64,000 nt of DNA from Geosiphon pyriformis. Its lineage: Eukaryota; Glomeromycota; Glomeromycetes; Archaeosporales; Geosiphonaceae. Below the pieces are notes generated by a model that had not been told where the DNA came from, searched no databases, and worked only from the letters and a program-made list of their open reading frames with translations. The translations under genes and the position numbers were made by a program. The first letter of the stretch is position 1. The number at the start of each line of letters is the position of its first letter. Positions 9,426 through 56,961 of the stretch are shown piece by piece. The stretch is from positions 337,725 to 401,724 of the forward strand of contig JAAOMT010000302.1 of NCBI GenBank assembly GCA_016748015.1, in the 5' to 3' direction.

Positions 9426-9433
9426 ATGCATAA
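9187..9433 (+). CDS. Possible spliced upstream ORF (48 codons)
   Basis: If the intron 9242-9341 is removed, ATG 9187 opens a 48-codon ORF that ends at TAA 9431-9433. It overlaps the main start codon (ATG 9426-9428) by eight bases in another frame. The splice signals are good, which supports a real leader intron, but translation of the ORF is inference. Its C-terminal part (VTEERSLKNLC) faintly recalls the start of Rtr1/RPAP2-type domains, but the match is too short to use. It could act as a regulatory uORF, or be chance. Confidence 0.3.
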
Positions 9434-12400
9434 CGACAGTGGTGCTGGAAGACCTTTGACCAACGGACGGCAAAGGACACCCGTCAAGCATCAAACTACA
9501 CAAGAAGAGGAAGAATCTAATGGAGGAAACCAGTCAACGACGCTTACTGTAGTTAATGAAATTTGCGAAGTCAATACAGACAACTCTGATAATGGAAGCG
9601 ACTGTCTTCACAGTCTGAACAATCGAAAAAACCTTAATGTGGTTAATGGAGTCGTTAAAGTTGAAAACTTCAACGAGTTGAGTAGTCGTAGAAGATTGAC
9701 TGGCTTGAATGGGAACGCTACCTTTGCAAGAGCAGGACCTTCCAGAGCTGTTAATTCCACGCCTGAATATAATGAAAGCGCAGGAATGAGTCGAAAAGAT
9801 TGCCGCAAATTAATGCCGATTACTAGCCACCAAAAGTCTAGGACAAAATTGATTCATTTGGTCGAGGCTGGCCTTTTGGAGGAGGACGCAGAGGTCATAT
9901 TTAAAGGCTGTCATGGAACTATAACTAACCAGGGAACCATAATTCCTTCCTATTTATTGGCTGGCGAAGAGGTTATCGACGCTTCATCTATCAAGTGGCT
10001 TTCTCAAGAATATGATTCACCCAGCGCTTTTGCAGCGGCTGTAAGCACAGCCGGAAGACCTGACAAAAAGGTGTCAGCTAACGGCTGGTCCTCAATAAAA
10101 ATATTGAGTCCGACCCGAGATTCTTGGGTACCTCTTGATCACTACCGGCAAATGTATGAATTGAAAGTTGAAAATGGTTATGATCCATCACAAGAAAAAT
10201 TTTATGTAAACGATTCATCGATTAAAATGTCTAATTTATCCGACATAGTTTCTCGTAGTGGGACACGGAAAATCATAAGCCATTCTCACGGTTTCAAGAC
10301 ATATCGTCGCAATCCAGCTTTAAATACTAAAATATATAGCAAAAGCGAAATTTCACGGCGTAATTTACGTAAATTATCTTTTGATTCCCAAATGGATCAG
10401 AAGCAAAATACTGATGCTATTGGAAAATCTGAAATGACGTTGAAATCTCGGCGATATCATAATCAATTTCTAAAATCAATTGGTCGAGATTCCTTTCGAA
10501 TGGGTATGCCACTGTATGTAAAATCATCAACGAAATCAGGATGGGATATAGATGAAGGATTCGATTTTTCTAGGAGTTTACTGCAACCAATTAAGCGCAG
10601 TGCAAGTATTACATTAGCCTCTCTAGAAAACATATTGCCTTTGATTAAAAAGCAGATGTTAATATCTAGGGAAGATTTTCCCGTACTACCTTTTGTTTTG
10701 CATCAAACAATTCCCGTGATTTTAGCTAAGGAGTCTTCACTTTTGAATTCTGATATTTGCTTCGCCTGCGGGACCATCGCGAAGTCGGATCAAATGGAAA
10801 GCGAAAAAATGATATACTGCGGTCAATGTGGGGAGGCTTATCATTCATTTTGCGTGCTTAAAAAGGAGAACAATGGGATCTCGCCAAAAACTTCTGTTTG
10901 CACGGAGTTTTGGGAATGCCCCAAGTGTACTGTGTGCATCAGATGCTTCAAATCTATTGCCGAATATTCTGAGGGCTCTAAGAGTCTGCCTGATCAACCC
11001 AATACTATTTTGAGGTGCAGTCAGTGTTGCGTAACAGTACATTTAGTATGTCAGGATAAAATGGATCCTTATGTTGAGGAATCAATGGAGGCAGCAGACG
11101 GACAATGGGTGTGTGAAAAATGCGTTTCTTGTGTTGAATGCGATTCAAACCCAGCAATGCATGCAGCAAAAATCGCTGCTATTGACAAAATACTCAACGT
11201 TGACGATCACTATATGTCGGAATGCGACTTCGACGAAAGTGAATCAAAGTCTAAACTACTTAAAGGACCATGGACTCATGGGTATCGGCTCTGTTCGTTC
11301 TGTAGTAATTTAAAAGAAAAAGGAAACATCTGTCCGATTTGTCGAAAATTGTATGGTGACGACGATTATGATATCCCAATGTTACAATGTGATACATGCC
11401 ACGAATGGATCCATCAAGAATGCGATGAAAACATGACCAAAGAAATGTATGATGCGATGGATGAAGACGAGAGCTTGACTTATTATTGTCCAGTTTGTCT
11501 AGCCGAGGCTAATGATCAATCGCACATCATGGAGGAAAATGGGTTTGAATTTCAAATCCACCAAGATTTGACTTTTAAAAAATCAAATATATTATCAAAA
11601 GCATATAACACTTCCGAACAGTCTATAAGTGATGATGAAATGAAAGATGCATTTCCCAACAGTGATTCTGCAGAGCGGGAAGCTGCAGATGCTTTGATAT
11701 CGATGTTTCAAAACCCCTGTAGTAGGCAGGCTGTGACATTCAAATTCGATGATAGCGAAATTCCTTTGATTGATGATAGTAAAGTCCAGCCTTCTGATGA
11801 TGATCCAATGATGATCGATTCTTCCTTGAAAGTGTTCTCCAATACACAAGAAAGTGTAGTCCTAAATCCGATTAAAGAACCTGATATTAGAACAGATTCG
11901 ATTTTTGATGAACTGGGTGTTGAAAGACTTGTCTTAAGTCCATCTCATTATCATACGACACTTAAAATTGATTCTGTTGTTCAATCTCTTTGTGAAAGCA
12001 AGAAAATTCCAAGTCAAATGAACTGTGTTTTGTGTCATATGGGAGATGAGTTGCAACAATCTGTAACACCTGGGCGGTTAATACCCTTTTGGATTTCAAA
12101 AGAACAAAAGTGGGCTCACACTCTATGCCTGATCTTTTCGAAAGGGGTCAAATTGGATGTGACTAATGGAGGATTAACTGGGGTACAGGAAGTTATCAAA
12201 GAATCTGCTGCAAAGGTTGAATAAAATATCTTCGATATTATAACTTTACAGAGATCGAAATTTATTATAAGCCATGCTTTTTAATCCGTTCTTTATCCTT
12301 TTTTTATGAATAGAAATGCGCGAAATGTAAGAATACTGGGGCTTCCTTAAAATGTGAGGCGAGTTGGCCAGGCTCACTTAAGAGTTGTGTGACCCAATAT

Positions 12401-14245
12401 TGGCACTACCCTTGTATTGCCTCGTCACCAAAATCTTTTGGATATCGGCTAGAAACTCAAAAATTGATTTTACTTTGTGACGCCCATCATGCAAAAACAT
12501 CACAAGAGCTTCCACAAAAAGAAATTTCCCCTAATTTTAATTTGAGAAGAGTTTATGTAAATCCTGAGGATTCCTCCGATTCTATGAAAATTTGGAGCAA
12601 ACCTACAGAATATTCATGGAGGTTCTCGGAAGTCATTCGATATGGGGCACTTATTATTCATTGCCTTGGAGAGTTCTCCGAAGACGGTGACTCAATGGTT
12701 GATCACTCCGTCGATTACCCAATACCAATAGGATTCCGCTTTGATCGACTCTACGTTCAATCCTCAAGTGGAAGAAAATTTAAGATTAGCTGTCAGCTGA
12801 TTGCGATTGACGGAACATTTATTAGCCTTCAAACCAGAAAAAGAAAATACAATGAAGGTCTTTTCGATGAAAATAAAGTTATCATTAAATATGACTGCCC
12901 AAATTCTATACGTTATGGATGGAAAGTTGCAGTTCAAGAAGAAATTAGAGATGTTTCGGAAATTAATAGAAAATATGAGTTGGTTGAGTACACAGAAAAG
13001 TCATCATTACAAGGTAACAGAATTTTTAAATTCGATTAGATAACTTTAAAATGGATTCCGACTGTATATAATTGTATTTAATAATCATGTATCGCGTACA
13101 ATCTTTTCACAGATGTTATTTCCTGGTTGGTTGAAAGATTTTTAATTCGAGAAGAAAATATGGGCGAATCTAATGCACAAACCAAAAACCATTTCTACAA
13201 CTTTCGACCCGATACCTTTTTCGGTTTAAATTATCCATTGATAATCAAACTAATAAAGTCTCTTCCCAACTACGAATTAAGTTTTCAAGCAATGCGCAAA
13301 TTGCAAGAAAGTCGAGAGAACATGAAAGAAATTATTGAATCGGATGACTATACTTCAGCACGTACAGAACATAGTTCAAAACAGACCGTTCGCCAAATAA
13401 GAAGAATAGGCAGTTGCTGTCATATAACTATATTGGAAAAAGAAAACGCTGATTATGATGTTATTTCTGAGCACCAGGAATTATTATCAAATCCTCATGG
13501 ACGTTGTGAGTCCATCATGAATGACTCTAGTCTCATCCAGCAATACACTAGAATGAAGGAAAAACAGTGTGTTAGCCTGCGACCAACATGGGGTAATAAA
13601 GAAACAGACAAGTCGGCGAATGACTATGTCGGACGATCAACTCGTCGTCGTGGCTCAAGTGGTGTCTTGATAATATCTGATAACCTAATAGCACCTACTC
13701 GAGCAACAAGCTCAAAGTCTAAATGTCCCAAAATTCCTCCTACAGACATAGGGGTTTTTGCTACTCGCGCTTTTGAAAAAGACGAAATGATAATGGAGTA
13801 CACGGGTGTTGTTCTCAGTTCTGCTGTGGCAAGACGTCTCGAGTCTAAATATGCTCGCAAGCAATCACAAAATCGTTACATGATGTGGGGGGATATAAAT
13901 TGGGTTATTGATGCCAGTCGAGTTGGTGGTTGTGCTCGATATATACGGGAGGATCGACAACATGTAAGCTTTTAAGTTAAATTTGCAAAAGATTTTGGGC
14001 TTATTTTTAGCTCTGCAATACCTTCAATAAAAGGTTCCAATTTTAATTAACAAATATCAATTAATTGAATATGCCTATCCTCTTCATAACCTTGTAAACA
14101 TCAGGCAAACACCTACGCCAAGCCATTTACGATCAATTCAAAACGTAAAATTGCTTTATTTGCACTTCGAAATATAAAATGCAATGAGGAAATAACGTTT
14201 CATTATGGAATAGAAAAAGATGTGAGCCATATCTATTATGCATGA
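9426..14245 (+). CDS. RAMA-PHD3-ePHD-FYRN-FYRC-SET protein, Trithorax/KMT2-like
   Basis: Four exons 9426-12215, 12314-13013, 13113-13963, 14105-14245; about 1,493 residues. Domains: RAMA about 138-245 (SPSAFA 198-203, NGWSSIKI 219-226, LDHYR 237-241); PHD1 C445-C501, PHD2 C504-C566 and PHD3 C636-C691, all complete C4HC3; extended PHD C867-H988 spanning intron 1; FYRN about 1038-1095; FYRC ending near FFGLNYPLI in exon 3; SET from about 1369. PHD1-3, ePHD, FYR and SET is the order of animal Trithorax/KMT2A-B, nuclear H3K4 methyltransferases. RAMA is a predicted N6-methyladenine reader. Oddities: the SET motif expected as NHSC reads REDR (1442-1445), GE reads GV (1395-1396), and the post-SET cysteines are absent. 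Tyr1481 of the YxY-type motif remains. Enzymatic activity is therefore doubtful. The domain calls are strong. The exact C-terminus is uncertain, because the frame stays open past the TGA at 14243. Confidence 0.88.
12216..12313 (+). other. Intron 1 of the RAMA-PHD-SET gene
   Basis: 98 nt, GT-AG, phase 0. Removing it joins ESAAK to KCAKC and completes the second half of the extended PHD finger (C932, C935, C944, C955, H961, C964, C985, H988). The unspliced frame hits TAA at 12222. Confidence 0.85.
13014..13112 (+). other. Intron 2 of the RAMA-PHD-SET gene
   Basis: 99 nt, donor GTAACA, acceptor TTCACAG, phase 1. Splicing creates a Gly-to-Asp junction codon (GAT) and continues the FYRC region into FFGLNYPLI. 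The unspliced frame stops at 13037-13039. Confidence 0.8.
13964..14104 (+). other. Intron 3 of the RAMA-PHD-SET gene
   Basis: 141 nt, donor GTAAGC after CAT, acceptor ACATCAG, phase 0. It joins RYIREDRQH to ANTYAKPFTI inside the SET domain. I searched the intron for codons of the missing NHSC motif as a micro-exon and found none. Confidence 0.75.
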
Positions 14246-14452
14246 AAAGTTGCTTTAGCTCAAATGGACAATAGGAAACGGCTCTCTCATAACATGGTGA
14301 GTATTTATACTAATATGGACTCATTAAAAGTTGAATTGACTATACTCACTTTCAAATTTATTTTAATACAGCTTGTAACATACTACAGCGCGAAAGACAA
14401 CGGTAATAGCGTATCGCGATATTTTCTCAATTCTGAGTTTTTGTGTATATAG
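14246..14452 (+). other. Open continuation beyond the SET gene stop, with a canonical intron
   Basis: After TGA 14243-14245 the same frame stays open. It runs to a good splice donor (GTGAGT at 14297) and acceptor (TACAG ending 14371), and then on to TAG 14450-14452, all in phase. Around the TGA, the residues at the three C-x-C-x4-C post-SET positions read Tyr, stop and Ala. Either the gene has lost its tail through a stop, or splicing differs here (GTGAGC at 14222 is another possible donor), or this is a spliced 3' UTR. Confidence 0.4.
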
Positions 14453-15905: not shown

Positions 15906-18205
15906 TTAATTTAAAAAATTAAAAAATGTTGTTTTTTGTCTTTTTAATTTTATGATTATGATCAGAGCAAAGAGTAAAAAAGCTGTATCTGATATTTTTT
16001 CAGAGATATTTAATAAAATTTCAATCAGAAAAGCTTTTTCTGTTATAGAAGCAACTAAGCAGAATGTTTTAGAAGTCTTTCTTTTACTTAATAATTGTAA
16101 AAAGCTGCTTTTGATAGCTACTAAAGCAACTTTTTCATCTTTGGCTAGTTTTTTATCAGTTAAAGTTTCTTTAAAGATACACATCTGAGTTAGTTCTAAT
16201 GTTGTCTTTATTCTTTTCAAAAGCCCAAAAGTTTTTAATAACAGACCAGTTAACAAGCTGGTTTTTTTATCATAACTTCAACATTAGATGCTGCCAGCAC
16301 TTCTTCTTTAAAAAAAATAGTCAAAAAGACCAAAAATTCAGAAAAGTGAAAACAGTTGCTTTCTTCTGTTATTGTTACACCAAATTTTTTTGTGGTTCCA
16401 ACTGAGATCTTAGATGAGATTTTTATTGTTTTATCTGACACATTATCTAAGATAGACCAAGATCAATTATTGATTGTGTTGCCAAATATAGTGTCTTTTG
16501 GCAAATTATTATTGTTTCTGGAAGCAAAACAATTATCTCCTATTAAGTTATCTGTTTTTGAAAACTGGACTGATTAGATGGAAACTAAATTATTTCTTTT
16601 GGTTTCTGGTATTATTACTAGTGATGCTTGGAAGATTATTATTGGTTGTCAAAAGTTTGCTGGGTGAGTGGCTTCTACTCTAATGTCTGGTGCTATTTTC
16701 AAGATCAAATTGGCTCATATTAAGACTGTTTTTAGTCTATACATAGTTTTTTGAGTGCAAAGTCTGTTTTTAAAGACAATATAAAGCTTTTTTATGTATA
16801 GTTTGCTTTTCAAAGTTCTCTAAATACTGCATTTTTGGTTGAGCTTACAAGCTCTGTTTGTCTTGCTACTCTTAAAATTGCCAAGTTTTTGGTGGTTTCT
16901 GAGTCTGGTTTTTTTTCTGCTGTTGTTGCACTGCATGATGTGTCTTTGGATGTGTCTGCTGCTGATATTAAGTTAGCTCTTAGTGTTTTTGGTAAAGTTT
17001 CTCATGTTATACTGAAGCCTGCTGATGTTTGGCAATATGTGGTTGTTTACTTTAAAAAATTGGATACTGCTGCTTCTGCTTTCATTTACTGGTTAATTTT
17101 GGTGGACAAAGATAGTGTTTGTATTCTTTTCTTTATTAATCAAAATAAGACAATTTTATTTTATAATCAGTTTAAGGCCAAGTTGGTCAATCTCTCTTCT
17201 GGTTGTACTGCCTTTGAGATTAGTAATATAATCTTTCAGATTGGTAGCCAGACTTGTTTTATTCCTTATTTGTCTAATTCTGGTCATTGTTTTTGGTTTG
17301 CTTTGATTATATTTAGTTCCCAAGTTGATTTGGACTTTGTAGTTATTAAAACTGGTACCTTAAGAAAGTGCTATATTTGGTAGAAAACTTTTGGTTGTCA
17401 ACACTGCTTTAGGTATCAAGAAGTGAACTATTTAGCTGTAGACTGCGAAATTTCTCTGTTTCCTCCCCTTAAAGCTCACAAAGTGTCTAAAACACATTTT
17501 GTAAGTAGTGTTTCTTATGCAAAGACTTCTGTTTTTCTAGATTTTTCTGAGTTTTCTCCCTTGGCAGCTTCTATTTCTCCTTCTGTAGTTGTTGGTAATC
17601 TCTTGGTGTCTTCTCGGTTGGCTTCTTTGGAGTCTGATTTAGTCAAGCTTTCTGTTTTGGTTAAGTCTATTGTTAAACCAGTTAGTTCTTTGGTCAAATT
17701 GTTTGAACAATTTATTAATAAAGATTTGGTCTCAAACAGTAAACTTGGCCTTAAAGTCAATGAAATTATGATGCATATGGGTTTCTTTAGTAAAATTGTT
17801 GGTAAGTTGGAAAGAGAAGTAGTTTTTTTAAAAAAAGAATGTTGCATAGAAAATGTTGATATGTCTGGTAATTCAAAGCACTTAGTTGGTTTAGATAATA
17901 TGATGTTTTCTAACTTGATGTCTCTTTGGGAACATGAATCTGTTGATGTTAAAGCTAATGCCTTGAAAACAGCCAAATGACTAGTTGAATTAGTTTTTTG
18001 TAATGCTATTTTGTTTTTTGTTATTTAAAAGATGTCATCTTTGGGTAAGTTTTTTTCTGATGTATCAATATAGTATAGTTTGAACTGGCTCAAGTAGCTG
18101 GTTATATATAGAAAATACATGAACTATATTTAGTTGTGGAACTCTTAATTTGTTCTTAATTTCTAGATAGTAGTTAGACTTTATTTATTAAACTCTAATA
18201 AAAAA
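15906..18205 (+). mobile_element. LINE copy with ORF1 only (half-LINE)
   Basis: A forward element that holds an ORF1 region and passes straight into the conserved LINE 3' tail (18,064-18,205) without any ORF2 sequence. Its 5' end matches the fragment at 34,360-34,440, and the middle matches 45,041-46,300. It is less decayed than most copies, with long open segments at 16,835-17,383 and 17,423-17,980. Confidence 0.7.
16310..17980 (+). pseudogene. LINE ORF1 (RRM-like domains, zinc knuckle, coiled-coil tail)
   Basis: RNA-binding ORF1 protein of the LINE. Segment 16,835-17,383 reads as tandem RRM-like folds (beta-alpha patterns around DIKLALSVFGKVSHVIL). A CCHC knuckle sits at 17,405-17,446; its second Cys and its His both read Tyr (CFRYQEVNYLAVDC). 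Segment 17,423-17,980 continues into a Ser/Pro-rich part and a heptad-like Leu/Val/Lys-rich tail. A TAG at about 17,382 replaces a knuckle codon. Stops between 16,310 and 16,835 and the broken knuckle indicate loss of function. Confidence 0.65.
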
Positions 18206-25402: not shown

Positions 25403-26640
25403 ATGGTAGTCATAGAGAAAAAAGTAAAAGATCAAGTTCAGATTTTTGAGGCAAAAACAACATTTAGTGAATCAGAAGAAATTAGATTAGTCAATCTATA
25501 CATACCAGCCAAAAACTACAGTCACATCAAACTTCCCATTTACAATAACACAGGAAATGTCATTAAGATACCAGAAGGAACCATCATTGGATACTTAACC
25601 ACTGAAATTGAAAACCAACTGTCAGACACTATTTCAGACTTTCCACAACTTTGTAGATATGTGAATATTACATCATAAACAATATATAGACAAAATGAAT
25701 ATTATTTGTTTCAACCAGAAAAATTGAAACAAATGAACATGAGAAACTTGAATTCACTACAACATATGCAGCTCAAGATATTACTCAACAATTTCAATGA
25801 CATCTTTGCTAGCAAAAATGAATTTGGCAGAACTGATATCATCCAACATCAAATCAAAACTGGTGATACAATGCCAATTAAACAGAGAGCATACAGAGTA
25901 CTACCAGCCAGCCACAAGATTATTTATCAAGAAATCAATTGGATGCTTAACAATGGGCTAATTCAGCCATCAATGAGCCCATGGTCATCACCAGTGGTAT
26001 TAGTCCATAAGAAAAATAGAAAAATATGCTTTTGTGTGAATTACTGGAAATTGAATAGAGTGACCAAAAGTGATAGCTATCCAACTCCAAAGATACAAAA
26101 ACTCTTCAATGTTTTTGGAGGAAAAAAATGGTTCTCAACTTTAGACTTAGACAGTGGTTATTGGCAAGTAGCCATGAAACCAGAAAACAAAAAGAAAATG
26201 GCTTTCACAACTTGGAAAAGAAATTTTGAATTTGAAGTGATGTTATTTGGCTTGATGAATGCTCTTGCCACATTTCAATGGTTTATGGAAATTGTCTATA
26301 CAGAATTACTGTGGAAATCAGTAGTCATATACTTGAATGACACTAATGTGTTCTCAAAAACATTTGATGATTATCTGCATCATCTTCAACAAGTATTTAA
26401 AAAACTCAGATGAGTAGAATTGAAATTAAATGCAAACAAATACTTTTTTGGCAAAATAGAACTCAAGTTTTTGGAACATGTTGTGAGCAAAGATGGTATC
26501 AAAACGGATCTGGATAAGATTGAGATTGTTAAAAACTTTCTAGTACCAAATAATCTTACAGAATTAAAAGCATTCTTGGAATTTGCTAGATACTATTGCT
26601 GCTTTATCAAAAACTTTTCCAAAATAGCTTAACCACTACA
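25403..26640 (+). pseudogene. Gypsy 1 reverse transcriptase
   Basis: 25,403-25,678 is a linker conserved in Gypsy 2. RT proper runs from about 25,706: IQPSMSPWSSPVVLV, then ICFCVNYWKLN, then WFSTLDLDSGYWQV with the first catalytic Asp present. The palm motif reads YLND instead of YLDD near 26,330, one Asp lost by G-to-A. The connection segment continues at 26,420-26,632 after a TGA. It would be inactive as it stands. Confidence 0.85.
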
Positions 26641-30867: not shown

Positions 30868-31362
30868 TTATATGTGACTGGAGTTTTTAACTATAGTAGT
30901 CTGTCCAGAATATCCAAATTTTAATCTTGCATCTGTATTATGTATATGTTCAGACATAATGTTCTTATTATTATTACTGAATTGAGTCACTTCTTGTTCT
31001 ATTGTAAGATCTAGAAGCATGATATATTGTTTGGTGTTTGAAGCAAAGTTTGAATTGTTGTTGGTGGAGTTTAAATTGTTATTGTTATTAGCAGAGTTTG
31101 AATTGTTGTTATCATCAGTGGAGTTTGAATCATTGTTATTATTAGTGGAGTTTGAATTGTTGTTGTTATCAGTGGAGTTTGAATCATTGTTGTCATTAGC
31201 AGAGTTTGAATCATTGCTGTTATTTAGTGGAGTTTGAATTATTACTGTCATCAGCAGAGTTTGAATTGGGATTAAGTTCCAATTCTGATTTTCATTTGTT
31301 CTTGCTAATTGGCTCTTCTTCAAATATATAACATATGAAAATGGATTGTGACTATGTTCCAA
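30868..31362 (-). pseudogene. Asn/Ser-rich pol fragment with start of dUTPase
   Basis: A 164-codon open frame on the reverse strand. Its centre is a nine-residue repeat of Asn/Ser/Asp/Thr (SNSTDNNND type). The end reads NTDARLKFGYSGQ, the motif 1 region of the dUTPase seen in Gypsy 1 at 24,927, and then stops. It corresponds to the acidic/Asn-rich linker before dUTPase in the full elements, expanded by repeat growth. Confidence 0.6.
31048..31262 (-). repeat. 27-bp coding tandem repeat
   Basis: About seven to eight imperfect units beginning GAGTTTGAAT on the + strand, each 27 bp, with one slightly longer unit. Being a multiple of three, it keeps frame and encodes Asn/Ser/Asp-rich nonapeptides on the reverse strand. 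Confidence 0.75.
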
Positions 31363-31552
31363 TATTCTGACTTAGAGCCATCAAGTGAGTTTTGCTGATT
31401 TATTGGAATTTATTGGACTTCAAATGTTTAGGTTTTTGAATAATTCCCAGAATTTGAATTGCTAAAAATTTAATGAGTTTTATCGATGGTAAGTTTCTTT
31501 GTATGATAGCAGAGTTAGAATTATTGGGTTTTAAATGTTTGGCTTTTTGAAC

Positions 31553-31955
31553 AATTAGATCTTAAATAATCAGAGTTTTAATAAGTTTTTAACAAATTTA
31601 TTAAAGGTAAGTTTCAAATATTCAGGGTTTTAATGATCAGGTTTTGAATAATCAGAGTTTTAATTTAATGAGTTTTAACAAGTTTATCAACAGTAATTTT
31701 TGAATGTTTAGGGTTTTTAATAATCAGGTCTTGAATAATTGGAGTTTTAATTTTAATGAGTTTTAACAGATTTATCAAAGATAAGTTTTAAATGTTTGGG
31801 GTTTTAATGATTGGGTTTTGAATAATTGGAGTTTTAATTTAATGAGTTTTAATGAATTTATTAATGGTAATTTTTGAATGTTTGTGGTTTTTAATAATCA
31901 GGTCTTAAATAATCAGAGTTTTAATTTAACAAGTTTTTACAAAGATAATAGTAAA
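31553..31955. repeat. About 87-bp tandem repeat, alternating subtypes
   Basis: Four full and one partial unit, each holding AATAATCAG/AATAATTGG followed by AGTTTTAATTTAATGAGTTTTAA. Every second unit is more alike (GTAATTTTTGAATG versus AAGTTT[C/T]AAAT), so the higher-order period is about 174 bp. Units start near 31,553, 31,639, 31,727, 31,814 and 31,900. Confidence 0.75.
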
Positions 31956-55145: not shown

Positions 55146-55631
55146 ATGCCAAAACATGTACATAATACTGATGTAGAATTTGATCTTAGATATTCCAGAA
55201 AAAATGCTATTAAATTGAAACCACATTTATGCACCTGTATTGATCTAAAAATATCACTGAAAATTCCAGTGATCACATTGATTCAACTAGCATCTAGAAG
55301 TAGTTTAGCAAAGAAAGAAATCAACATCAGAGGAAGAATAATTAATACAGGATATGTAGAAAATATTATTGCAATACTACAAAATAATTCGAAAAAAGAA
55401 TATATTATTAAACCAAATAAAAAGATAGCACAGACAATATTCTTACCTTTGGTAAAAGTAGCTCAGTTAATGTTAGTGGAAACAAGAAAAAAATTAGGAA
55501 TTACAGCCAGAGAAAAAAATAGATTCGGATCCACAAGTAGAATAGATATACCAGTTAATATGGCAGAGGAAAAAATTGTTGACAAAAGAAATTATTTCCA
55601 CCTATCAATCAATTTCTATTCCACTATATGA
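55146..55631 (+). pseudogene. Gypsy 2 dUTPase domain
   Basis: Open for 161 codons with all five motifs in one frame: VEFDLRYSR, SRSSLAKK, RIINTGYVENI, KIAQTIFLPL, FGSTSR (55,525-55,542). Motif 3 has Asn where the family has the catalytic Asp, and motif 5 has Ser for Gly, both explained by G-to-A. This copy proves the reading frame that Gypsy 1 has lost at an A-run. Confidence 0.85.
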
Positions 55632-55639
55632 CCAGTATT

Positions 55640-56961
55640 TAGTAATTATTAAGAGAAAAGTGAGAAATCAAACCCAAATTTTTAAAGCAAAAGCCACTAT
55701 TTGTGAATCAGAAAAGATTGTTATTACTAATCTCTATATACTGGCTAAAAGCCACAAGCACATCAAAATCCTTGTCTACAATACAACTAGAGATTTTATC
55801 GAAATACTAAAAGAAACCACTATTGGATACTTAAGCACTAAAGTTGAAAACCAACCACCAAGCATTATTCCAGACTTTTTACAACTATGTGAATATGTGG
55901 ATATCATATTACAAGCAATATATGGATGAGAAGAATGTTATTTGCTCCAATCAGAACAATTGGAACAAATAAACTTGGGAAATCTAAACTCACTCTAACA
56001 AATACAACTCAAGATATTGCTTAACAATTTCACTAATATCTTTGCCAGTGAAAATGAATTTGGCAGAACTGATATTATTTAGCACTAGATTAAAACTGAA
56101 AATACAATGCCAATTAAACAAAGAGCATACAAAGTATTACTAACAAGCCATGAAATTATCTAACAGAAAATCAACCAGATGTTAGACAATGGGTTAATTC
56201 AATTATCAATGAGTCTATGATTATTACCAGTGGTACTAATTTGTAAGAAGAATGAAAAAATATACTTTTGTGTAAATTATAGAAAATTCAATAGTATTAC
56301 TCATGAAGACAGCTATCTAATTTCACAGATCCAGAAATTATTTAACACTTTTGGGGAAAAAAAATAATTTTCAACATTAGATTTAAACAGTAATTACTGA
56401 CAAGTAGCTATAAAACCAGAAGACAAAGAGAAAACTGCATTCACCACAAGAGAAGAGAATTTCGAATTTGAAGTGATGTTATTTGATTTAACTAATACAC
56501 CAGCCATCTTTCAATGGCTCATGGAAATCATTTATATAGGACTATTATGGAAATCAATAATCGTATATCTGGATGACACCAATGTGTTCTCAAAAACATT
56601 CAATAATTATCTTCATTATTTACAGCAGGTGTTTGAAAGATTAAAAAAAGCTGGATTAAAACTGAATGCAACCAAATGCTTTTTTGGCAAAACAGAACTG
56701 AAATTTTTAAAACATGTTATAAACAAAAATGACATTAAAATAGACCCAAATAAGATTAAAATAGTAAAAAACTTTTTAGTACCAACAAACTTGATGAAAC
56801 TACAAGCATTCTTGGAATTCACTGGATATTACCACTGCTTTATCCAGAACTTCTTTAAACTGGCTCAACCACTTCACCAACTCCAAACTAAAAATGTAAA
56901 ATATGAATGGACTAAAGCTCAACAAGAAGCTTTTAACATTCTAAGAAGAAAGCTTATTTAA
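55640..56961 (+). pseudogene. Gypsy 2 reverse transcriptase
   Basis: Linker 55,640-55,929, then RT. The N-terminal half has stops. From 56,473 a 162-codon open frame covers the palm with intact YLDDTNVFS and the connection domain. The first catalytic region reads STLDLNSNY, with Asp kept in LDL. The gene is broken upstream. Confidence 0.82.

Follow-up and report, generated by a model that had tools for sequence, protein, structure and literature searches.

Trithorax-type proteins follow a recurrent plan. In MLL1, a CXXC domain with affinity for non-methylated CpG DNA is followed by three PHD fingers, an extended PHD, FYRN, FYRC and SET (PMC8022399), and the TRX subfamily as a whole has been described by PHD fingers, FYRN/FYRC and a Set1-type SET with adjoining post-SET cysteines (PMC2474616). 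That survey, published in 2008 and centred on Ascomycota, found the subfamily to have no member in fungi (PMC2474616). The gene described here lies in a window of 64,000 nucleotides (the whole stretch analysed: contig JAAOMT010000302.1, positions 337,725 to 401,724, forward strand) and carries a RAMA domain in the position N-terminal of PHD1 that CXXC holds in MLL1. Judged from its sequence, it would on balance encode a Trithorax-type chromatin reader or scaffold and not a writer of histone H3 Lys4 (H3K4) methylation, because SET motifs are lost, the cage of PHD3 for trimethylated H3K4 (H3K4me3) is whole and a canonical Set1 is encoded at another locus. The gene model is as follows, in window coordinates.

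9426-14245, + strand: whole gene, four coding exons spliced in silico, 1493 amino acids (aa)
9426..12215, + strand: coding exon 1 (residues 1-930), with the N-terminal region, RAMA, PHD1-3 and the first half of the extended PHD; single open frame, splice model
12216..12313, + strand: intron 1, 98 bases, GT..AG; splice model, the extended PHD exceeding the Pfam cutoff once the flanks are joined
12314..13013, + strand: coding exon 2, with the second half of the extended PHD and FYRN; splice model and Pfam
13014..13112, + strand: intron 2, 99 bases, GT..AG; placed by frame and splice sites alone
13113..13963, + strand: coding exon 3, with the FYRC-like stretch and the first two thirds of SET; splice model and Pfam
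13964..14104, + strand: intron 3, 141 bases, GT..AG; the SET match spans profile positions 2-105 of 105 once the flanks are joined
14105..14245, + strand: coding exon 4, with the end of SET and the stop codon, without a post-SET cysteine cluster

The coding sequence begins at ATG 9426: an in-frame stop lies six codons upstream, and this is the first ATG to follow it. The first-pass annotation had placed the gene at 9837..14245; its end is kept and its start moves upstream to ATG 9426, which its residue numbering already fits. Exon 1 makes up 930 codons of an uninterrupted 932-codon frame; in 1000 random sequences from a first-order Markov model, matched in length and composition, the longest open run did not exceed 183 codons. 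As RAMA and PHD1-3 share this one frame, their fusion is independent of the splice model, and the proposed in-frame joining of RAMA to a Trithorax/KMT2-type architecture stands on this frame and on the Pfam domain scans. GC content peaks at codon position 1 in all eight segments measured. Two junctions gain support from the domains that they interrupt: the extended PHD scores 15.8 bits when exon 2 is scanned by itself but 33.1 bits in joined exons 1 and 2 (a 194-aa piece; cutoff 29.1), which supports intron 1, and SET (PF00856, cutoff 22.4) rises from 25.4 bits over profile positions 2-67 to 60.0 bits over positions 2-105 when exons 3 and 4 are joined, which supports that junction. A single locus of this kind was found in the genome (124.7 Mb, 406 contigs), and no relative emerged when viral contigs were scanned with exon 1. 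The domains are distributed as follows.

9828..10169, + strand: RAMA domain (residues 135-248); Pfam PF18755, fold match to 7ydt, 7ydw and 6pbd
10749..10931, + strand: PHD1 (residues 442-502); Pfam PHD_4, 35.3 bits when a 583-aa piece is scanned (cutoff 30.6), 25.3 bits over all 1493 aa
10932..11141, + strand: PHD2 (about residues 503-572); cysteine spacing, limits set by eye
11331..11498, + strand: PHD3 (residues 636-691), a relative of MLL1 PHD3; Pfam and PDB comparison
12096..12487, + strand: extended PHD (residues 891-988), split by intron 1; PF13771 33.1 bits, PF13832 32.2 bits
12635..12760, + strand: FYRN-like stretch (residues 1038-1079), below the Pfam cutoff
13181..13276, + strand: FYRC-like stretch (residues 1187-1218), weak Pfam match
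13748..14209, + strand: SET domain (residues 1376-1482), split by intron 3; PF00856 E 3.5e-16, closest solved relatives Set1 and MLL1
13946..13963, + strand: site of the lost NH(S/C)C motif, which binds S-adenosylmethionine (SAM) (residues 1442-1447); alignment with Set1 and MLL1

Three stretches match the Pfam PHD family, in the full protein as well as in pieces, while the extended PHD is not listed in the full-protein scan. PHD3 matches its counterpart in MLL1 (2kyu, E 4.1e-14; 7zey, E 6.4e-14; 3lqh, E 4.4e-12), in which the H3K4me3 cage consists of Tyr1576, Tyr1581, Met1585 and Trp1594 and the finger is assisted by the MLL1 bromodomain (PMC8022399). All four cage residues are kept (Tyr643, Tyr648, Met652 and Trp661). 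Given this match and the complete cage, binding of H3K4me2/3 by PHD3 is the best-supported functional prediction for the protein. Neither a bromodomain nor a CXXC is listed by Pfam in the full protein.

The SET domain looks disabled as a methyltransferase: it has lost both the Asn that binds SAM and the post-SET cysteines. Arg1442 aligns with the Asn of INH(S/C)C, which we take to be Asn3906 of MLL1, and the motif here reads REDRQ. Asn3906 is reported to be required for SAM binding, and the N3906A protein is inactive yet still assembles (PMC3887211). Beyond residue 1430 only Cys1437 and Cys1473 occur, and no post-SET cysteine cluster was found. Two candidate repairs were rejected: an alternative splice restoring NHSC, since the three forward frames of 13900-14260 contain no NH, NY, HSC or HCC, and a post-SET in a further exon, since the four occurrences of CxC..C in the forward frames of 16367-17941, of which the closest is 2.1 kb beyond the stop codon, are by eye unrelated. 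In the canonical Set1 on contig C294, NHSC and EEITYDY are present and the post-SET (CLCGAPTC) is complete. The genome-wide SET search gave 15 matches, one of them a further locus of the Set1 gene; among the 14 loci thus examined by pattern, six show NHxC, and this gene and seven others do not, although introns or other SET classes may explain those seven. The idea that the protein itself writes H3K4 methylation is therefore not upheld, NH(S/C)C and post-SET being lost and an ordinary Set1 being encoded elsewhere; the proposed link to H3K4-type chromatin would more likely run through PHD3 with its MLL1 cage than through its own SET. The stretch GRCE at residue 1293 resembles, by eye only, the Win motif that binds WDR5.

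The RAMA domain had been proposed at residues 138-245, and both the profile and the fold comparison agree with this. Scanned alone, a 153-aa piece (residues 121-273) matches PF18755 at E 3.3e-10 with 40.3 bits, above the cutoff of 35.2; longer queries fall just below it (34.7 bits in the 583-aa piece, 32.0 bits in all 1493 aa). In shorter pieces the best stretch covers only the second half of the profile (positions 54-105, residues 187-248), and the full-protein scan extends over positions 14-105 (residues 135-248). A low-confidence fold model ranks the MPND and CcrM RAMA structures first to third in the PDB (7ydt, 7ydw, 6pbd). Against PDB sequences, plain phmmer with the RAMA piece returned only two chance matches (E 1.3). 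The prediction that RAMA reads N6-methyladenine (6mA) in DNA reportedly goes back to Iyer and colleagues in 2016.

The first-pass annotation had also given the order PHD1-3, extended PHD, FYRN, FYRC and SET. Of this order, and of the TRX signature, the three PHD fingers, the extended PHD and SET are found, and the FYR region is less distinct. FYRN is a probable domain, though each of the three scans leaves it below the cutoff (E 3.6e-5 to 1.1e-3), and FYRC is weak in the same scans (E 0.012 to 0.14). The two stretches align, in their order, with TBRG1, a FYR protein of known structure, at E 0.16 only, and the model of the FYR part of exon 2 is too poor to use (mean predicted local distance difference test score, pLDDT, 41.4).

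KMT2A/KMT2B (MLL1/2) and Drosophila Trithorax have in common with this protein the order of PHD1-3, extended PHD, FYRN, FYRC and SET (the two FYR stretches here being putative), an MLL1-like PHD3 and, ahead of the PHD fingers, a module that binds DNA (here putatively). However, the module here is RAMA and not CXXC, no bromodomain was found, the FYR stretches lie close together, SET is without NH(S/C)C and post-SET, and the protein is far shorter. MPND (RAMA plus MPN) is a eukaryotic protein for which binding to both DNA and histones has been reported, and from the model it appears to have the same RAMA fold, whereas here no MPN domain was found by Pfam and RAMA is joined to PHD fingers and SET. 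Fungal Set1/COMPASS likewise has a SET of the Set1/Trithorax family, but the Set1 of this genome is encoded by a separate gene whose motifs are intact, and the present gene adds PHD, FYR-like and RAMA parts. Readers such as KMT2E/MLL5 and SET3, which are not known to have methyltransferase activity, place SET beside a PHD reader in a different architecture that is not known to include RAMA or a PHD triplet. The PHD-bearing p1 subunit of the ichthyosporean AMT1 complex (PMC12695648) similarly joins a 6mA system to possible H3K4me3 reading; p1, however, partners the 6mA writer, whereas the joint here sits in a Trithorax-type protein.

The genome contains four MT-A70 genes.

Contig C232, about 636 kb: METTL3-like, from the MT-A70 search
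Contig C370: METTL14-like, from the MT-A70 search
Contig C306: MTA9-like, matching Tetrahymena-type MTA9 at E 2.3e-17, exons joined by eye
Contig C232, about 495 kb: AMT1-like, matching 7f4r at E 4.3e-73 against 2.5e-34 for METTL3, exons joined by eye

The METTL3-like and METTL14-like genes are named by motifs that we presume to be diagnostic, and 7f4r is taken to be Tetrahymena MTA1. An initial MT-A70 search gave three places; the AMT1-like gene emerged only at a relaxed threshold, as fragments at E 0.273 and 8.79 that reached 31.1 bits with their neighbours and were then identified by PDB comparison. It lies about 140 kb from the METTL3-like gene on the same contig. The AMT1-like and MTA9-like genes are those of the 6mA methyltransferase. 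The organism appears fungal and perhaps early-diverging, as had been surmised: there are two chitin synthase loci and 148 matched TLD-domain fragments, the latter on many contigs, some from the same gene and several closely clustered (as on C168, C355 and C368). A TLD expansion presumably points to arbuscular mycorrhizal fungi, and together with a missing type I fatty acid synthase (FAS) it is typical of Glomeromycotina. A literature search on TLD expansion in Glomeromycotina found nothing; no type I FAS domain matched in the genome, and control genomes likewise gave none, so that its absence is not shown. In Rhizophagus irregularis, 6mA is described as reduced, located at symmetric ApT in genes and associated with transcription, and AMT1 is recorded in arbuscular mycorrhizal fungi (PMC8298701). 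In one survey Glomeromycota fall below 0.3% 6mA (PMC11258239), so the mark may be sparse if the organism is such a fungus.

How the parts would work together can be outlined. RAMA would bind double-stranded DNA, replacing the CXXC of MLL1 as the DNA-reading module; PHD3 would bind H3K4me2/3 through its conserved cage; SET would no longer methylate and might at most offer a surface for docking or for assembling a complex, while the separate canonical Set1 would write H3K4me3. Active promoters could then be recognised by DNA, possibly 6mA, together with H3K4me3, and partners tethered there. A more specific and tentative version, possible though doubtful, is that of a bivalent reader with RAMA on 6mA linker DNA and PHD3 on the H3K4me3 of the adjoining nucleosome, a Trithorax plan in which RAMA took the place of CXXC and methyltransferase activity was given up. 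The putative 6mA preference of RAMA is the least certain step of the model; for MPND it is contested. MPND is reported to bind double-stranded DNA independently of sequence and without effect of 6mA, and to bind histones as well, and the RAMA of CcrM touches DNA backbones without specific base contacts (PMC9963953). A serious rival is thus a RAMA that is a general anchor on double-stranded DNA or nucleosomes and indifferent to 6mA; the protein would then read H3K4me3 on a Trithorax plan and hold DNA in a generic way. This is unlikely without being negligible: an earlier pull-down, as cited in the same article, suggests that MPND RAMA may prefer 6mA (PMC9963953), and 6mA writers are encoded in the genome.

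Two further explanations concern SET. Against the loss of activity weigh its strong profile match and the retention of EYxG and a late catalytic-type Tyr, so that it might be an active H3K4 methyltransferase guided by RAMA to 6mA DNA, working despite its altered motif and perhaps with COMPASS subunits; the MLL1 partner subunits are reported to dimethylate H3K4 even with the inactive N3906A SET (PMC3887211). With NH(S/C)C replaced, post-SET absent and a canonical Set1 in the same genome, this is improbable. Still less probable is a decaying gene that lost the end of SET by drift and has no present function, Set1 doing the work. The deviation of the SET and FYR parts from consensus and an AT-rich neighbourhood with retrotransposon remnants would fit decay, but the long open frame of exon 1, three matching PHD stretches, the whole PHD3 cage and the codon-position GC bias all speak against it.

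The surroundings of the gene in the window are repeat-rich as well as AT-rich. Reverse transcriptase fragments, by eye of long-terminal-repeat retrotransposon type, lie at 25706-26413 and 56473-56961 (+ strand), and a dUTPase-domain frame (E 1.3e-13) at 55146-55628 (+ strand), about 840 bases upstream of the reverse transcriptase frame, possibly belongs to one retroelement with it. Adjacent frames of 182 and 185 aa at 16835-17980 (+ strand) have no Pfam match at E 0.01 and look by eye like parts of a long interspersed nuclear element. Tandem arrays occur at 31528-31943 (periods of 87/174 bases) and at 31055-31268 (periods of 27/54/81 bases); a minus-strand frame rich in Asn and Ser (30868-31362) contains the second array.

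Eukaryotes with an AMT1 gene are reported to have both 6mA and H3K4me3 nucleosomes accumulating downstream of transcription start sites. A 2025 survey (PMC12695648) and a 2026 review on DNA methylation in fungi (PMC13297926) both name the missing 6mA reader as an open question, the review stating that no canonical fungal reader is known (PMC13297926). RAMA is not named in the main texts of PMC12695648, PMC13297926 or PMC8298701, and a literature search on the domain gave nothing on fungi by title, although earlier RAMA-prediction or Rhizopus 6mA papers might mention the fusion. By uniting RAMA with an intact MLL1-type H3K4me3 cage, the protein is a candidate for the missing fungal 6mA reader, and since the genome also holds AMT1-like and MTA9-like genes, the question becomes testable with two recombinant domains. 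If the organism is indeed fungal, the gene would also bring the Trithorax type into fungi. If bivalent reading were true, the protein would be the first fungal 6mA reader and would directly and physically connect two marks that are found together past transcription start sites.

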